Virus record (IMG/VR): IMGVR_UViG_3300048135_000262
Span: 1 to 25,258 of that record
DNA from: a virus
DNA: 25,258 nt
Strand: one strand, 5' to 3'
Both the position numbers and the translations under genes were made by a program. This document shows, piece by piece, positions 1 through 17,874 of the stretch (the stretch's first letter is position 1; each line of letters starts with the position of its first letter). Under the pieces are notes generated by a model. The model saw only the letters and a list, made by a program, of their open reading frames with translations, was not told the DNA's origin and made no database searches.

Positions 1-461
1 GAGACTTTACAAGTAGGTTTCTGCATCACTAGGATAGCCTCTGAGATGGTATTAGGCTTATACATCACAGGTTTGCGCAACTGAAAGAATGCACCATTAC
101 GATTAGGTGCTGCACCTTCAGGCTTAACCCACTGAATATCATCAATGTATTTGAAGCCAACCTTCTCACAAAGATTGAAGATGTGGAATGGAATGGGCCA
201 GCGAGTAGAGTCTTCTTTACTAGGCTTCTCTGGTGCTGAGATGACAGGTGATGAATTCACAATGAACATTCTGCCATCATCTAGAAGACGATAGACTTCA
301 GAGAAGACTGACTCTAGAAAGTTCAGATAGTCTTCATACGTGGGCCATGTGGCGTATTCACGAGCATTATAATAAGGTGGTGAGGTGACAGCCATGTGAA
401 TACTCTTCTCATCAAGAGTCTTCATCATATCTACACAATCACCATGTAAGATTTGAAACAT
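1..461 (-). CDS. DNA methyltransferase, beta class, 3' end cut by window edge
   Basis: The open frame starts at the ATG at 461 and runs off the left edge, so about 153 residues are visible. It reads MFQILHGDCVDMM at the N-terminus, followed by the catalytic motif TSPPY (about residues 25-29) of N4-cytosine/N6-adenine amino-methyltransferases. The catalytic motif comes first, and the S-adenosylmethionine-binding motif is expected later (not visible), which is the beta-class order. The protein would methylate an exocyclic amino group in phage DNA, perhaps to evade host restriction. It is a paralogue of the next gene upstream (495-1349), with the same N-terminal layout (VTSPPY then a Y-rich segment). 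Its promoter overlaps the end of that neighbour. The target sequence cannot be inferred. Confidence 0.85.
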   Translation of the reverse strand, partial: MFQILHGDCVDMMKTLDEKSIHMAVTSPPYYNAREYATWPTYEDYLNFLESVFSEVYRLLDDGRMFIVNSSPVISAPEKPSKEDSTRWPIPFHIFNLCEKVGFKYIDDIQWVKPEGAAPNRNGAFFQLRKPVMYKPNTISEAILVMQKPTCKV

Positions 462-12052: not shown

Positions 12053-12210
12053 GGGTTGCAGCAGAGAGTAATAAGTTCGTAGTTGTTGAGGGATTCAAGA
12101 TGTTTGCGATATTCATCTGGATCCCAATCTGGGTTGCCTTCACAATCAACCTGTACAGATTCGTCAATGATTTCTTTTCTCCTTTCTTTTGTAAGAAAAT
12201 AATTTATCAT
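12049..12210 (-). CDS. Small conserved gene between polymerase and uvsX (53 aa)
   Basis: The start at 12210 reads MINYFLTKERRKEIIDESVQ and the stop is at 12049. Its ATG overlaps the polymerase stop (ATGA), and its own stop overlaps the uvsX start (ATGA), so gp43B, this gene and uvsX form a continuous translational relay. The protein is charged and helical, with an acidic middle (GNPDWDPDEY) and a C-terminal CC pair. No domain is recognised. The position between polymerase and recombinase suggests a replication or recombination accessory, but that is inference. Confidence 0.85.
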   Translation of the reverse strand: MINYFLTKERRKEIIDESVQVDCEGNPDWDPDEYRKHLESLNNYELITLCCNP

Positions 12211-13370
12211 GTGAAAAAATCAAATAGGGTTGCGGTTTTTTCTGATTGCCATCCAATGGTATCCAGAATAACCTGGAGTGGATCAATGAATGACTTTTGA
12301 AACATTGTATCATAATCCAAGAACTTATGTAAATCAAACTCAGGTGGTAATTCAGTAATGAATGACATAATGTTACCACCAGTTGGATTAGGAACTCTGA
12401 GGAAGACGAATCTAATCTTCTCACCATCTTGAATGATGTTGTACTTATTAGTCAGTTGATTCTGTCTCAGGAGGTGGTTGAACATGATACAACCTCTGAT
12501 GTGAATGGGACATCCTTTCTTATACAGAGTAGAGACATCCATAAACTTAGAGATGTTATTACCTGTTCTTGGAAAGGCAATTACTTCAGGTGGTAGAGAT
12601 TCAAACTCCTTACGTTTAGAAGCAACATACTCAATGAGTTCCTCCTCTGTACCTTCCATAATAATCTTGAGAGACTCTTTGATGTAAGCACGACAAGGCT
12701 TAGGTGTTGAGGACTTGACAGCCTCAATACCCATCATCTTGAGCTTAGGTTCCTCATACCTAACACCCTCATTGTCCCATACATTCAGGATGTATCGCTT
12801 CTTAGCAGTCCAGATACCACGTTCAGCAATACACTCTCGCTTCATCACGAGAGTCTCTTCATAACAGTTCAGGTAGTCAGAGAGCTCTTTGTATGACTCA
12901 TCAATGAATGGTTCAATCTTATCCTGACAGAACTTGTTTAGAATGTCGACAGTTCTTTCGCTTGGTAAGCTACCGTTGGATGCAGCCCTATCCACAAGAC
13001 TCCCAAGATTAAGGTAGATACTATCAGTATCCGAAGCAACAACATAATCTGTATCCTTAGTACCCAACATCTTATTTACATACTCATTGAGCTTACGTTC
13101 AATCCAACGAATAGCAACCTGTCCTGTACATGTGATAGCCTCAGCATTCTCAAGACGATAGTGCCTGAAGTAGTTGTTACCAATTGCTCCATACAACGAA
13201 TTCAAACAGATCTTTCGCACCATCTGGAAGTTACTGAACTTAGTTACATCCTTCACAGTCTGAGCATGAAGTTCTAGTAGTTGTTCATTAGAGAGGTGAG
13301 ATAAGTCTTTACCTGACTTTACAATCTCTTCTTGTGCTTCTTCACCAGCACCACCGATTAAATATCCCAC
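12207..13370 (-). CDS. 43: DNA polymerase gp43, C-terminal cistron (43B: fingers, palm motif C, thumb)
   Basis: Begins at a GTG at 13370 and encodes 387 residues with family B motif B KICLNSLYGAIGN (about 53-65) and motif C SDTDSIY (113-119, catalytic Asp114 and Asp116). A thumb domain follows. The last residues, TATLFDFFT, match the sliding-clamp-binding tail of T4 gp43. The GTG shares its first G with the TAG stop of 43A (TAGTG), and GAGG lies 9 bases upstream, so it is a plausible re-initiation site. Together with 43A all polymerase motifs are present with T4-like spacing, so nothing appears lost at the split. It must assemble with 43A to be active. Confidence 0.92.
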   Translation of the reverse strand: MGYLIGGAGEEAQEEIVKSGKDLSHLSNEQLLELHAQTVKDVTKFSNFQMVRKICLNSLYGAIGNNYFRHYRLENAEAITCTGQVAIRWIERKLNEYVNKMLGTKDTDYVVASDTDSIYLNLGSLVDRAASNGSLPSERTVDILNKFCQDKIEPFIDESYKELSDYLNCYEETLVMKRECIAERGIWTAKKRYILNVWDNEGVRYEEPKLKMMGIEAVKSSTPKPCRAYIKESLKIIMEGTEEELIEYVASKRKEFESLPPEVIAFPRTGNNISKFMDVSTLYKKGCPIHIRGCIMFNHLLRQNQLTNKYNIIQDGEKIRFVFLRVPNPTGGNIMSFITELPPEFDLHKFLDYDTMFQKSFIDPLQVILDTIGWQSEKTATLFDFFT

Positions 13371-14836
13371 TAGTTAATACCTCTCTTCTTCATCTCAGAT
13401 TCCACATCAACTAACAACTGTTTATATTGTAGCATACGTTTCTTATAACCTACACGTTCTTCATACATCTTGATGACTAACTCAGGCATCATACCAGTCA
13501 TAGTCTTATCATACAGGGCACCATTAGCTGCTACAGCATAATCACCAGGTGGATTGACTGTCTCTTTCTTATCAATCAATTTAAGATGATTCACATCAAC
13601 ATGTTTGTTGGGAATCAATGTCTCTGGTGATACATTAAGAAATCTAATGAGTGAAGGATACAGTGAGTTCAAGTCAAAGGATACAATCCAATCATAAGCA
13701 CCTGGTTTAGGTTCTTTAACATAAGCACCAATAAATTGATCTGGTTTCTCATTGCTCTTCATCAATGGAAGGACAATGTTCTGTTTCTTCAGGTAATTAT
13801 AGATGATGATGTCCCATAGTCTTACCTGTGCAAATGTATCAGTGTAGTTACACTTGGCATCATACGCCATCAACATCACCAAGTCAATGAGTTTCATCTT
13901 CTCTTCTAACCTGTCAACCAGATCCACGTCAACTAGGTTGTAATCAACGAACTTCTGCCAGTTGCCATCATAGAACTCTTTGAAGGTAGCAAACTCAGAG
14001 TGATCAAGTTTCTTCTGTCCTAACTCAACCTCAGCAATGTAATCAAGGCGATAAGATTCTTGGTTGGTATAGGTAAACTTCTTATAGATGTCAAGGTAGT
14101 CAAGAACTGAGACACCAGCAATGTCATAAGTCTGTTGCTTTCTACCAAACACCTCTACCAACTTCTCACTCACCATTCTCCAAGGTGAGATGTCTCTCAT
14201 TTGATTCAAACCTAGGACATTACGTACACGATTGACAATGAATGGGATGTCAAACATGTTCACATTCCAACCTGTAATCACTTCAGGTCCAACATCTTGC
14301 CACCATGCAAGGAATGTCTTCAATAGAATGATTTCATCTTCACAATAGATGTACTCTACATCATCACGTGTAGGTGTATAAGGACGTGATCCAAAGGTAA
14401 TCAGTCTCTTAGTATTAAAATTCTTGAGTGTGATGAGTAGGATTTCTTCTGTTGCTTCTTCAGGTTTAGGAAATCCATTCTCTGATGATGTCTCAATATC
14501 TAGAGACCAGAGTTTAATCTTATCAATGTCATAGTTGATGTCTTCTGGATACTGTTCCGAGATGAACTGATACAGATATCTTTCAAATCCATACACCTTG
14601 GTGCCTGAGACATTGGAGTAGTCTTCAATGAATTGACGACACTCCTTCATTGAACCAGGTTGAATAGGTGACACAGAAACACCATCCAAGGTTTTAAACT
14701 TAGATGGTTTTTTAGACTGCAAAAAGAGGGTGGGTTGAAAACGGGTTTTCTCCATAAAGGATCCGCCCTTTTGATCATCCCAACCTCTCAGGAGTATTTC
14801 ATTGCCGTACAAACGAGCGAAGGTATAGAAACGAAT
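13370..14836 (-). CDS. 43: DNA polymerase gp43, N-terminal cistron (43A: exonuclease and palm motif A), ATT start
   Basis: The first 488 residues of a T4-type family B polymerase. With the ATT start the Exo I motif WSLDIETS has Asp113 and Glu115, nearly the same positions as Asp112 and Glu114 of T4 gp43. Exo II is GWNVNMFDIPF (Asp about 196), Exo III YNLVDVD (about 299-305), and palm motif A SFDLNSLYPS (catalytic Asp about 388). The frame ends at TAG just before the fingers. The start choice: a TTG at 14812 has no ribosome binding site, whereas ATT at 14836 has AGGAG seven bases upstream and restores the expected N-terminus RFYTFARLYGNEILLRGWD. No ATG is available in frame. Confidence 0.92.
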   Translation of the reverse strand: MRFYTFARLYGNEILLRGWDDQKGGSFMEKTRFQPTLFLQSKKPSKFKTLDGVSVSPIQPGSMKECRQFIEDYSNVSGTKVYGFERYLYQFISEQYPEDINYDIDKIKLWSLDIETSSENGFPKPEEATEEILLITLKNFNTKRLITFGSRPYTPTRDDVEYIYCEDEIILLKTFLAWWQDVGPEVITGWNVNMFDIPFIVNRVRNVLGLNQMRDISPWRMVSEKLVEVFGRKQQTYDIAGVSVLDYLDIYKKFTYTNQESYRLDYIAEVELGQKKLDHSEFATFKEFYDGNWQKFVDYNLVDVDLVDRLEEKMKLIDLVMLMAYDAKCNYTDTFAQVRLWDIIIYNYLKKQNIVLPLMKSNEKPDQFIGAYVKEPKPGAYDWIVSFDLNSLYPSLIRFLNVSPETLIPNKHVDVNHLKLIDKKETVNPPGDYAVAANGALYDKTMTGMMPELVIKMYEERVGYKKRMLQYKQLLVDVESEMKKRGIN

Positions 14837-14843
14837 GGTCTTA

Positions 14844-14848
14844 CTCCT
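14844..14848 (-). promoter_or_regulatory. Ribosome binding site that fixes the ATT start of 43A
   Basis: AGGAG on the minus strand, 7 bases before ATT (14836-14834). It is the only good SD near the 5' end of the polymerase frame, and no ATG or GTG lies at the right distance. Confidence 0.7.
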
Positions 14849-14853
14849 AAATA
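14847..14853 (+). promoter_or_regulatory. Late-promoter-like box (CTAAATA) before the homing endonuclease
   Basis: The plus strand reads TCCTAAATAATAATAACG, 24 bases before the ATG at 14877. Homing endonuclease genes of T4-like phages are often driven late. The box overlaps the SD of 43A on the other strand. Confidence 0.4.
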
Positions 14854-14876
14854 ATAATAACGAACGTTTAGAATAA

Positions 14877-15356
14877 ATGTATTCTATCTATCTCATACAT
14901 TGTATCACAACTGGTAAGAAATATGTAGGGCAAACCAAAGGAAAGGTTGAGAATAGGGTACAACAACATTTCAACAAGAATACACCTACTCACTCACGTA
15001 GCCCACGCTTGTATCAAGCAATGGAGAAGTATGGTAGAGAGAACTTCATTTGGGGTTTAGTAGAGCAGTGTGATGAGAGCTTAGCAAATGAGAGAGAATG
15101 CGATATAATAAGAGAATACGCTACATTTTCTCACGGATACAACTCTACTATTGGTGGTTCTACATTCAAAAAGCACTCACCTGAGACTAAAGCAAAGATG
15201 AGTGCTACTTGGAAATCAAAAGGTACTTCAAACCGTAAAGGTAAGAAGAATAGTGAGGAAAGTAATGCAAAAAGAAGGGCGACAATGCTTGCCAGAAAGG
15301 AGGCAGGACTTTATTGTGGTCGCCCTAAAGGTTCAATACCTTGGAATAAGAAATAA
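14877..15356 (+). CDS. GIY-YIG homing endonuclease with NUMOD3-type motifs (159 aa)
   Basis: The only plus-strand gene. The N-terminal GIY-YIG domain starts YSIYLIHC (SIY at 3-5) and continues KKYVGQTKG (YVG at 16-18), with catalytic Arg27 in ENRVQQHF and a Glu in the NERECD region (about 71-76). The C-terminal part has two short DNA-binding repeats of the NUMOD3 type: HSPETKAKMSATWK and then NSEESNAKRRATMLARK. This is the Seg/Mob-like free-standing endonuclease layout, which spreads by cutting relatives that lack it. It is inserted between the 62/72-aa gene and the split DNA polymerase. Its GIY-YIG domain looks intact, so it is probably active. Confidence 0.93.
   Translation: MYSIYLIHCITTGKKYVGQTKGKVENRVQQHFNKNTPTHSRSPRLYQAMEKYGRENFIWGLVEQCDESLANERECDIIREYATFSHGYNSTIGGSTFKKHSPETKAKMSATWKSKGTSNRKGKKNSEESNAKRRATMLARKEAGLYCGRPKGSIPWNKK
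14877..15356 (+). mobile_element. Free-standing homing endonuclease insertion
   Basis: A self-contained opposite-strand gene breaks an otherwise continuous minus-strand gene order. It ends 3 bases from the next gene's stop, and its late box overlaps the polymerase SD. No intron or intein boundaries are visible, so it is a free-standing (Seg/Mob-like) element. Confidence 0.7.
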
Positions 15357-15358
15357 TC

Positions 15359-15547
15359 TCACAGGTTCTTTTTACGTTGTTCCTGTAGATATTGTATCAC
15401 ATCTTCTCTGATTTGCATCAACTCATCATAACAACCTTGGTTGCGTGCACACTGACGCAACCTGTGGTCTGCTTTTAGAACTGACTCAGTGAATAGTGTC
15501 AGACCATCAATATATTGGGTCTTCGATGTACTTGGGTTCGTACTCAT
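15359..15547 (-). CDS. Small protein of unknown function (62 aa)
   Basis: Read from MSTNPSTSKT at 15547. A longer form from 15577 (72 aa) is possible, but no start has a clear ribosome binding site. The frame overlaps the end of the 119-aa gene by about 40 bases, so coupling is likely. The protein is helical and charged in its C-terminal two thirds (DELMQIREDVIQYLQEQR). Two cysteines are visible (CARNQGC). It was probably the direct upstream neighbour of gp43 before the endonuclease inserted. Family not recognised. Confidence 0.6.
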   Translation of the reverse strand: MSTNPSTSKTQYIDGLTLFTESVLKADHRLRQCARNQGCYDELMQIREDVIQYLQEQRKKNL

Positions 15548-15866
15548 CGTCAGGCTCAGTAGGGATGTTATCTTCATTTAGGACAATAGGCTCAGCCTTC
15601 TTACGAGCTTCACTTATTTGTTTACTAAACTTATTTGTGTACGCTTCAGCAACTGCCTCAGTTGGTTCACACATTGTCAGAAGAATGTCTGACTGTAGGA
15701 GGATGTGCTCATCAGGTGTATGCTCAGGCCATCGCGTGAGCACCACCTTTTGCTTTCCTGAAATGACACAAGGACACAATAGATGTACCTTGGGTTCATA
15801 TTCAAGTTGATCAGTCGCTGCTATTAGCGTCTGTCCCGTCTTCAACACTACTATCGCCAGGTCCAT
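15507..15866 (-). CDS. Small beta-rich protein, paralogue of its neighbour (119 aa)
   Basis: The N-terminal 85 residues align by eye with the 124-aa upstream protein: both open with a VxVLxTGQxxIA / VLVTALGQHIVA strand pair, an acidic tract, a Pro-containing turn and a block ILLTMCEPTEAVAEAYTNKF versus HIVAILEPRDDVATRYKEIV. The acidic C-terminus differs. The strand pattern recalls an Sm/Lsm-like small beta barrel, but this is only an impression. The start at 15866 lies 56 bases inside the end of the 124-aa gene. I recall such pairs as conserved hypotheticals near gp43 and hsp20 in marine T4-like phages. Confidence 0.75.
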   Translation of the reverse strand: MDLAIVVLKTGQTLIAATDQLEYEPKVHLLCPCVISGKQKVVLTRWPEHTPDEHILLQSDILLTMCEPTEAVAEAYTNKFSKQISEARKKAEPIVLNEDNIPTEPDDEYEPKYIEDPIY

Positions 15867-16185
15867 CAGTCAAATCCATACTTGTTAGGGGTTCATCAGG
15901 TGTTACAATTTCTTTGTAACGTGTTGCTACATCATCACGTGGTTCAAGGATTGCCACAATGTGATCAGCCTTGATGGTGAATGATTGCTCATCAGAGAGG
16001 ATACAGTATGGAAGGTATTGGATTGCAATACCCTTCTCATCATTATCCTCAGTTGGTGCATAAGACACCAGACGTGGACGATCAAGCCAATACCCAATCA
16101 GCTCTTCTGTTTCTTTGTTCTCTACCTGCTTAGCGTCAGCAACGATATGCTGACCCAATGCGGTTACTAATACTTTTACGGCCAT
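15811..16185 (-). CDS. Small beta-rich protein, paralogue of its neighbour (124 aa)
   Basis: Begins MAVKVLVTALGQHIVADAKQ. About 95 structured residues are followed by an acidic Ser/Asp-rich tail (about 98-124). It is related to the 119-aa protein downstream and overlaps it by 56 bases. Its expression signals are striking: a consensus sigma70 promoter sits inside an inverted repeat whose second arm contains AAGGAGG, about 14 bases before the ATG. The function is unknown; the controlled expression suggests an early role, possibly in RNA or replication control, but nothing in the protein proves it. Confidence 0.8.
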   Translation of the reverse strand: MAVKVLVTALGQHIVADAKQVENKETEELIGYWLDRPRLVSYAPTEDNDEKGIAIQYLPYCILSDEQSFTIKADHIVAILEPRDDVATRYKEIVTPDEPLTSMDLTDGPGDSSVEDGTDANSSD

Positions 16186-16196
16186 AATTGTTAGTA

Positions 16197-16222
16197 AAGC
16201 CTCCTTATTATACAGGAGGCTT
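16197..16222 (-). promoter_or_regulatory. Inverted repeat that contains the -10 box and the SD of the 124-aa gene
   Basis: A perfect 9-bp inverted repeat (AAGCCTCCT / AGGAGGCTT) with an 8-base loop. On the minus strand the second arm holds the SD AAGGAGG and the loop holds most of TATAAT. In RNA read through from hsp20 the SD would be paired. In RNA started at the embedded promoter the first arm is missing. It could also act as a weak terminator for hsp20, since only TTT follows the stem. Confidence 0.75.
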
Positions 16223-16235
16223 GGTTAAATGTCAA
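16207..16235 (-). promoter_or_regulatory. Consensus sigma70 promoter (TTGACA-N17-TATAAT) for the 124-aa gene
   Basis: TTGACA at 16235-16230 and TATAAT at 16212-16207 on the minus strand, separated by exactly 17 bases. Both hexamers are perfect consensus. The -35 overlaps the hsp20 stop codon. It probably serves host RNA polymerase early in infection. Confidence 0.8.
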
Positions 16236-16645
16236 GTGATTGGAAGTTCTTTACGTTTCTGTTCTTCTGGAACAACGAGAGTGATAGGAATGATAAGCAT
16301 TCCATTCTCATAACGTGGTGTGCCAACTTCAGCTTGATCTCCAAGCTGCCAGTTGCGACTGAATGTTCTCTGTGCAATTCCTCTATGGAGGAACTGACGT
16401 GTGTCTGCTGTTGGTGCAGTTGTGCTGACACCTAAGACTCCACGATGAGTTGTGACACTAATGTCTTCTTTGGCAATTCCTGCCAAAGCAATATGCAACT
16501 CCTGAGAGAATTCATCAACCTTGATGATGTTGTATGGAGGGTAGTTGGAAGATGTGTTGTCCACTAGAGCATCTAGCCTGTGAAACATGTCTTCTACACC
16601 CAGTGTGACAGGAGCATAGCGCTCCCAACGTGTTAGGTTATTCAT
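16232..16645 (-). CDS. hsp20: Small heat-shock protein Hsp20
   Basis: 137 residues from the ATG at 16645, preceded by AAAGGAGAACCA; an upstream frame extension lacks such a signal and lies in the leader terminator. The alpha-crystallin core runs from about residue 35 to 130: YNIIKVDEFSQELHIALAG, KEDISVTTHRGVLGVS, FLHRGIAQRTFSRNWQL and MLIIPITLVVP are the expected strands. The final strand carries IPI, and the short tail ends ELPIT. It acts as an ATP-independent holdase; in marine T4-like phages it is a core gene thought to assist virion assembly. A late promoter TATAAATA (16700-16707) fits this. A terminator-like hairpin lies in its leader. Confidence 0.93.
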   Translation of the reverse strand: MNNLTRWERYAPVTLGVEDMFHRLDALVDNTSSNYPPYNIIKVDEFSQELHIALAGIAKEDISVTTHRGVLGVSTTAPTADTRQFLHRGIAQRTFSRNWQLGDQAEVGTPRYENGMLIIPITLVVPEEQKRKELPIT

Positions 16646-16666
16646 TTGGTTCTCCTTTAAAAGCAA

Positions 16667-16697
16667 GAAAAAAGTGAGTCCCTTACGGCAACTCACT
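16667..16697 (-). terminator. Rho-independent terminator-like hairpin in the hsp20 leader
   Basis: The minus strand has AGTGAGT, an 11-base loop that can pair further at CC/GG around GTAA, then ACTCACT followed by TTTTT. It lies downstream of the 380-aa gene and also just downstream of the late promoter at 16700-16707, so it would sit in the 5' leader of the hsp20 transcript. Confidence 0.65.
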
Positions 16698-16699
16698 CT

Positions 16700-16707
16700 T
16701 ATTTATA
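16700..16707 (-). promoter_or_regulatory. T4-type late promoter (TATAAATA) for hsp20
   Basis: An exact T4 late consensus TATAAATA on the minus strand, 55 bases before the hsp20 ATG and just after the 380-aa stop. Confidence 0.75.
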
Positions 16708-16731
16708 ACCTAATTTGAGGTGATTGTCAAA

Positions 16732-17874
16732 TTATTGATTTTGTACATTTCCATGGGGTTCAATGTTTCTGCCACTGACTTTACCAACACCCTGTCTCTT
16801 ACGAGCACCAACGCCAAGTCCTTCACCTTTCCTCATTTTACGTGGCTTAAGAACCTTAGTCTTTTGAGCAGGTGCATCATAAACAGGCTTCTTAGGCTCA
16901 GGTTTTACTGATACTTTCTCTTCATCAGGATTCTTGCGATTCTCTCTTCTCTCTTTTTGAGCTTTCCTAAACTTATCAAGATTCTCATCAAGAATGTCTT
17001 CAACAATGGTATCATACCAATCATCAGACATGTGAGTCATGATGTTGATTGCAGATTCCTCATCATGTGCAATACCTTCACCAATCAGTGTAGCAAAGAC
17101 TGCTTCTAGTTCCTCTTTCTTAGGACCATAACGCTTATTCAGGTCTTGACGACGATCAGCCTCAAGTTTGTAAGCCTTGTTCTTAGTCTTGTTGTAAGCA
17201 GGCTTGGCGAATCTCTTCTCAAGTCCTCTCTTCTTATTGGACATCTCCTGTCCTTTCACTGCATCCTTCACCATGCCTTCAGAACCTTGAGTTGCCTTAC
17301 GTACAACTTCCATCTTACGAGCTTGTGCAGGTCCATCACCATCACGTGACTTACCTTTCTGCTGATTCTTCATCTTATCAGCAGGAAGACTCTTATAACC
17401 TTCCATGTAAGCTGATGTGTAGTTCTCTTCAGTCTCATACTCAAATTCCTCTTTCTTAGAGGATTTCTTAGAAGAGTTACCCCAATTAGAAGCACCTTTA
17501 GCACGACACTTCACAAGAGCACCAGAAGCATAAGCTGAAGGCCACACATCATAACGTGACTTCACCTTATGATAGCAAGCATCCTTCTCACCTTCATCAA
17601 GTACTTCATACTCTTCATTCTTAGAAGTCATGCTGCTGGTAACCTTATTACCAACTGCATTAGAACCAGCACTGATTGCTTTCTTACCCAGAGAGGAACT
17701 TGCTGCCTTAGCAAGTCCACCACCAGCTTTAGCTGCTGCACCAGTTGCTGCCTTACCAGCTAGAGCACCGGCTGCCTTCCCAGCTAAACCAGCAATCAAA
17801 GGAGCGACTTCATCAATCTGCTCTTTATTTTCGTAAATGCCAGCATATGCGCCAGCTAAGTCAATGTTTCTCAT
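16732..17874 (-). CDS. Late protein with ACYHKVK...WPSAYASG motif (380 aa)
   Basis: The N-terminus MRNIDLAGAYAGIYENKEQI is a signature I associate with marine T4-like virion proteins. Residues about 22-78 are Ala/Gly-rich (APLIAGLAGKAAGALAGKAA) and could insert in or cross a membrane. Residues about 97-133 hold DACYHKVKSRYDVWPSAYAS then GALVKCR and WGN, a conserved short domain found in several phages and large viruses (DUF5872-like, from memory). The rest is strongly basic and low-complexity (Lys/Arg-rich, 150-380), which suits nucleic-acid contact. A late promoter precedes it. A head-internal or ejected protein is a reasonable inference; no enzyme motif is visible. Confidence 0.82.
   Translation of the reverse strand: MRNIDLAGAYAGIYENKEQIDEVAPLIAGLAGKAAGALAGKAATGAAAKAGGGLAKAASSSLGKKAISAGSNAVGNKVTSSMTSKNEEYEVLDEGEKDACYHKVKSRYDVWPSAYASGALVKCRAKGASNWGNSSKKSSKKEEFEYETEENYTSAYMEGYKSLPADKMKNQQKGKSRDGDGPAQARKMEVVRKATQGSEGMVKDAVKGQEMSNKKRGLEKRFAKPAYNKTKNKAYKLEADRRQDLNKRYGPKKEELEAVFATLIGEGIAHDEESAINIMTHMSDDWYDTIVEDILDENLDKFRKAQKERRENRKNPDEEKVSVKPEPKKPVYDAPAQKTKVLKPRKMRKGEGLGVGARKRQGVGKVSGRNIEPHGNVQNQ

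Follow-up and report, generated by a model that had tools for sequence, protein, structure and literature searches.

The window analysed here is the whole 25,258-bp virus record IMGVR_UViG_3300048135_000262, a fragment of a marine T4-type cyanophage. Its minus strand carries two DUF6561 genes, the small gene phrog_495 (15359..15577), 43A (13370..14836), 43B (12207..13370) and uvsX. Profile matches (PF03104, PF00136 and phrog_262/2062/1918) revealed that 43A and 43B jointly form a T4-type family B DNA polymerase, with the exonuclease and polymerase domains of DNA_pol_B divided between them. 43A contains the exonuclease domain and the first part of the polymerase domain, and 43B, which begins with a GTG in a TAGTG overlap with the 43A stop, contains the remaining polymerase part. 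RB69 gp43 matched the split polymerase with an E value of 1.5e-76, and no papers naming split gp43A/gp43B as such were found in our literature search. The gene order DUF6561-DUF6561-phrog_495-43A recurs across the clade of the window, phrog_495 lying directly before gp43A in most relatives. In the window, this order is interrupted by a free-standing GIY-YIG homing endonuclease gene between phrog_495 and 43A (14877..15356, plus strand, opposite to 43A; 159 residues), which matched PF01541 over the full profile (E 1.4e-9) and phrog_314. Some variation was also seen around the polymerase genes of other sequences (L numbers are our own handles): a DruA-like protein (PF14236) is inserted between 43A and 43B in L016 (3393-4457), and the gp43B start appears to be ATC in L010 (about 4620), L012 and L120, where relatives have ATG or GTG. 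An insert between phrog_495 and 43A in L014 was dismissed as ordinary genes, the gp43 start there being ATG.

The stop-to-stop frame of 43A extends from 14887 to 13370, and its first ATG, GTG or TTG is a TTG at 14812 (14810..14812); no such codon lies between the upstream stop and this TTG, in agreement with the initial annotation, which had reported no in-frame ATG and proposed that 43A starts at an ATT (14834..14836). The minus strand reads AGGAG TAAGACC ATT at 14848-14834, so that the frame, the coordinates, the Shine-Dalgarno (SD) sequence AGGAG (14844..14848) and its 7-nt spacing were all as proposed. Reading from the ATT yields (M)RFYTFARLYGNEILL, the gp43 N-terminus that had been predicted, and places the Exo I acidic pair at 113/115, likewise as predicted, where D114/E116 of RB69 gp43 align. 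The calculated energy with the anti-SD was −6.8 kcal/mol before the ATT vs +1.3 kcal/mol before TTG 14812. An energy as good as that of the ATT occurred at 6% of the sampled minus-strand positions, and a 5-nt SD core at −13..−5 accompanies only 1.7% of the ATT/ATC trinucleotides counted over the whole window. In SD strength and spacing, the ATT is better than every other plausible in-frame start codon, and with an SD at working distance and no canonical in-frame start, 43A falls into the class of AUU/AUC-start genes. No strong RNA structure was seen at the start site.

Two other starts within the frame were weighed against the ATT. No canonical codon precedes TTG 14812 in the frame, and an annotation program would choose it, but it lacks an SD and would deprive 43A of its first eight residues, including RFYTFAR, which is conserved in the clade and lies at the N-terminus of the RB69 gp43 alignment (beginning at RB69 residue 4). 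The earlier claim that this TTG has no ribosome binding site and costs a conserved strand was thus borne out, and we consider a start there very unlikely. Another non-AUG codon farther upstream, giving an N-terminal extension, would be compatible with the frame being open to 14887 and with the two residues added by an insertion in the relative L093 (see below). However, the codons in this stretch have no SD at working distance, none of them is a good start codon, and a longer conserved N-terminus, which had been named as an observation that would speak against the ATT, was seen in no relative examined. An upstream start is therefore very unlikely.

In the relatives fetched, the codon aligned with ATT 14836 serves as the start; it is ATG in L005, L009 and phages S-B68 and S-CREM2, TTG in L004, L007, L011 and L015, and GTG in L018 and L020. 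A few relatives begin one to three codons farther upstream, at ATG, GTG or TTG. Among the 28 rows assigned to the window's clade by tree placement, the start was ATG in 11, TTG in 11, GTG in 2, ATC in 2 and ATT in 2. The differences of 43A codons 2-12 from L004 and L005 are mostly synonymous. Across all gp43 families sampled, 326 N-termini collapsed into 147 groups, and 144 of the 147 had a canonical start among the matches listed; the pattern scan is a sample rather than a census, and three further rows without a canonical start, which begin at the M of MYT, were left out of the tally. The remaining three groups among these matches were the window, L016 and L019 (the latter two being one contig each), all with AUU or AUC at this position and located on three separate branches of the tree with TTG and ATG neighbours. 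Arbitrary sense codons would give AUY in all three with a probability of about 4e-5 (2/58 cubed, by our own arithmetic). When IMG/VR was scanned for the clade N-terminus preceded by ATH, a pattern that does not cover the L019 N-terminus, only L016 and two near-copies of the window matched. In control genes from the same loci, a canonical start was missing in 0/86 uvsX (after removal of two false alarms), 0/56 gp41 and 0/27 DUF6561 genes. Candidate non-AUG gp43 starts in L362, L388, L413 and L423 were rejected because the next codon is ATG, TTG or GTG, and those in L080, L194 and L230 were explained by MYT starts.

The two near-copies, L002 and L003, come from two other metagenomes and have the same ATT, with 1 difference from the window in 7186 nt and 36 differences in 4460 nt, respectively; a base-calling error is therefore unlikely. 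The initial annotation had regarded an ATG at 14836-14834 in reads as refuting its proposal, and both assemblies show ATT instead. L003 is identical to the window around the 43A start and departs from it in the 3′ half of 43A. Since 34 changes fall within 13380-14129 and none from 14130 to 17238, the sequences point to a recombination break probably inside 43A. A check for co-conversion showed near-identity of the two extending several kb beyond the insertion. If 43A were untranslated here, the ATT pointing to a defunct gene or an error in the sequence, the missing canonical start would be accounted for. Against this, three assemblies agree on the ATT, the 43A and 43B frames are intact, the 43A frame of L003 remains open despite its 3′-half differences, and gene 43 is essential in T4, which makes this explanation highly improbable.

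The gene order of relatives and the junctions placed the insertion at approximately 14837..15358, about 520 bp. In the clade, the 43A start codon often overlaps the stop of phrog_495 (TTGA, GTGA or ATGA, as read from the sequences), suggesting that 43A may be translationally coupled to phrog_495 in relatives. In the window, phrog_495 ends in CTGTGAGATT, and the endonuclease comes next instead of the polymerase. At this end lies GTGAGATT (15355..15362, minus strand; GTG AGA TT), which shares bases with the TGA stop of the upstream gene and with the end of the endonuclease stop codon; it is the gp43 start sequence in L031/L032 and L020, and by comparison with relatives it is probably what is left of the original start of gene 43. 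The GATT of the left junction may be part of the endonuclease tail rather than of gene 43.

The nearest relatives of the endonuclease, with 44% identity, were found in L093-L100 and L448-L457 (several metagenomes, another cyanophage clade). In the L093-type clade, gp43 also lies on the strand opposite to the endonuclease, with 25 nt between the two ATG codons. The empty site in L040 is GGTGAAGGAATGAAGTTTTATACG, and the occupied site in L093 consists of GGTGAAGGAATGA, an insert of about 579 bp with ATGTCACTT at its end, and then AAGTTTTACACG. The two match on both flanks, the BLAST pieces join at the A after the ATG, and the old gene 43 start is stranded beyond the insert, as in the window. This insertion right after the ATG implied that the start codon of gene 43 is where this endonuclease lineage inserts, and the endonuclease of the window presumably cleaves there. 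Occupied and empty alleles could thus be compared directly for the homologue (L093 vs L040), and for the window through gene order. In L093, the endonuclease flank provides a new ATG, with two residues added (MSL-KFYT), and L100 retains MSLK with synonymous changes, which suggests that this leader is translated; the flank in the window provides AGGAG and ATT. Because the L093-type insertion brought a new ATG, AUU is not a necessary outcome of insertion. In L092, the endonuclease and the intact gp43 start are separated by a short copy of the gp43 N-terminus that ends in a stop (ATG..YTNVYC stop; about 100-190, minus strand) and looks like the leftover of an earlier insertion.

Upstream of the endonuclease in the window is a late-promoter-like sequence, CCTAAATA (14846..14853, plus strand), which matches the cyanophage late promoter motif NATAAATA (PMC2984593) at all but one position. 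At +14846 it overlaps the SD of 43A, which lies on the opposite strand, in agreement with the earlier remark that the 43A start is squeezed against the endonuclease promoter. Late-type promoter sequences are present in both endonuclease flanks, CATAAATAA being that of L093 and CCTAAATAA that of the window. Since gene 43 of T4-type phages is known to contain group I introns (PMC2993671), the insertion might be an intron or part of one, with splicing restoring the GTG start. Yet an Rfam intron search of the window, L016 and L019 gave nothing above threshold, and the opposite-strand endonuclease takes up about 480 of the 520 bp, too much for a ribozyme core to fit as well, so that an intron is extremely improbable.

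We therefore propose, with a probability of roughly 0.84, that 43A is translated from AUU 14836 via AGGAG, and that insertion of the GIY-YIG endonuclease displaced the original GTG start. The relatives, the SD, the controls and the RB69 alignment combine into a case for the ATT that falls short of direct proof, and the AUU start most likely resulted from the endonuclease gene landing on the original start codon of 43A. On sequence comparison, the insertion is shown to lie at the start codon, a site that the related endonuclease has also used. In the ancestor, gene 43 would have begun at a GTG that shared bases with the stop of the preceding small gene (GTGA). An endonuclease gene with its own late-type promoter would then have inserted at this start codon, stranding the old GTG behind it and placing new DNA directly before codon 2. 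Gene 43A would now use AUU at the start position, where ribosomes would initiate, directed by AGGAG 7 nt upstream, a new SD within the endonuclease promoter region; its output would be expected to be low and IF3-sensitive.

The initial annotation had guessed that relatives have ATG at this position and that ATT occurs only in endonuclease-carrying genomes, which was half right. ATG is indeed found there, but among relatives free of the endonuclease TTG is as frequent as ATG, and GTG also occurs. L016 starts with ATC, preceded only by the phrog_495 stop and by GAGG 6 nt upstream, with no upstream endonuclease, and L093-L100 and L448-L457 carry the endonuclease at the same site with an ATG start of gp43. 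AUU is thus not simply a mark of the endonuclease. In L019, the ATC lies 22 nt after an HNH endonuclease and has a weak SD (−2.4). All these cases have the start at the same fixed codon position, and the window's clade also tolerates weak start codons, which by analogy with AUU in infC and pcnB might keep the polymerase low.

Non-AUG starts of this kind are known from infC (AUU in E. coli, ATC in Streptomyces) and S. aureus cvfC1 (AUU); those of infC, pcnB and cvfC1 yield less than AUG, infC being held down by IF3 and cvfC1 having a strong SD (PMC5472188, PMC13009471). 43A resembles these genes in its AUU start, whereas they are host genes with conserved non-AUG starts and 43A is a phage replication gene whose start was apparently replaced through a mobile element. 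In T4 and RB69, gp43 limits its own synthesis at translation initiation through an RNA hairpin operator (PMC3014915). Synthesis of 43A would likewise be limited at initiation, but at a site without strong structure. The GIY-YIG endonuclease gene seg43 of Aeromonas phage 25 is associated with a split gene 43 (PMC2988022), so that a GIY-YIG-type insertion beside gene 43 is already known. The window shares with it a seg-type endonuclease adjoining a split T4-type polymerase gene; seg43, as described there, is tied to the 43A/43B split, whereas the endonuclease of the window lies at the 43A start codon on the opposite strand. The 43A/43B split is also present in relatives without the window-type endonuclease. 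The likeness to T4 segG, segA and mobE, as far as the available text on them goes, lies in a free-standing gene inserted near conserved replication genes with expression signals rearranged; all T4 free-standing endonucleases except segD are given there in the orientation of their neighbours, in contrast to that of the window. This text contains no description of start-codon displacement by T4 free-standing homing endonucleases, and within our partial coverage of the literature no start-codon insertion with a non-AUG replacement was described.

AUU starts are very rare and overlooked by gene finders. The comparative data place such a start on a phage replication gene that is essential, where its historical cause is clear and relatives offer parallels, and they provide a concrete example in which the initiation signal of a host gene was rewritten by a selfish endonuclease. 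They also connect the choice of start codon and IF3 with the dose of DNA polymerase in marine viruses in a way that can be tested. A broader idea, which we regard as possible but doubtful, is that the endonuclease lineage targets the polymerase start codon and thereby seizes the translation start, and that T4-type viruses repeatedly evolve AUU/AUC starts of gene 43 as an IF3 brake replacing the T4 RNA operator.

Other gp43 families of uncultured viruses also seem to lack a canonical start near the N-terminus, and no cultured phages with a non-AUG gp43 were found as close relatives of these groups. In L360, L370, L378 and L442, ATGGAGTAA lies before gp43 and forms a reading frame of two codons that overlaps the SD, and GGAGTAA is followed by AUC or AUU with no canonical in-frame start. 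L379 and about ten similar contigs (L380, L407, L408, L419, L429, L434, L445 and others) have a hairpin, a T-run, AAGGAGG and then AUC-AUU, and L359 with four others (L372, L384, L420, L439) has a hairpin, GGAGG and AUU, a TTG being buried in the SD. The hairpin and T-run before gp43 in the L379 and L359 types resemble a terminator or an operator; because the T-run differs in length, only some of these contigs have an upstream ATG in frame.
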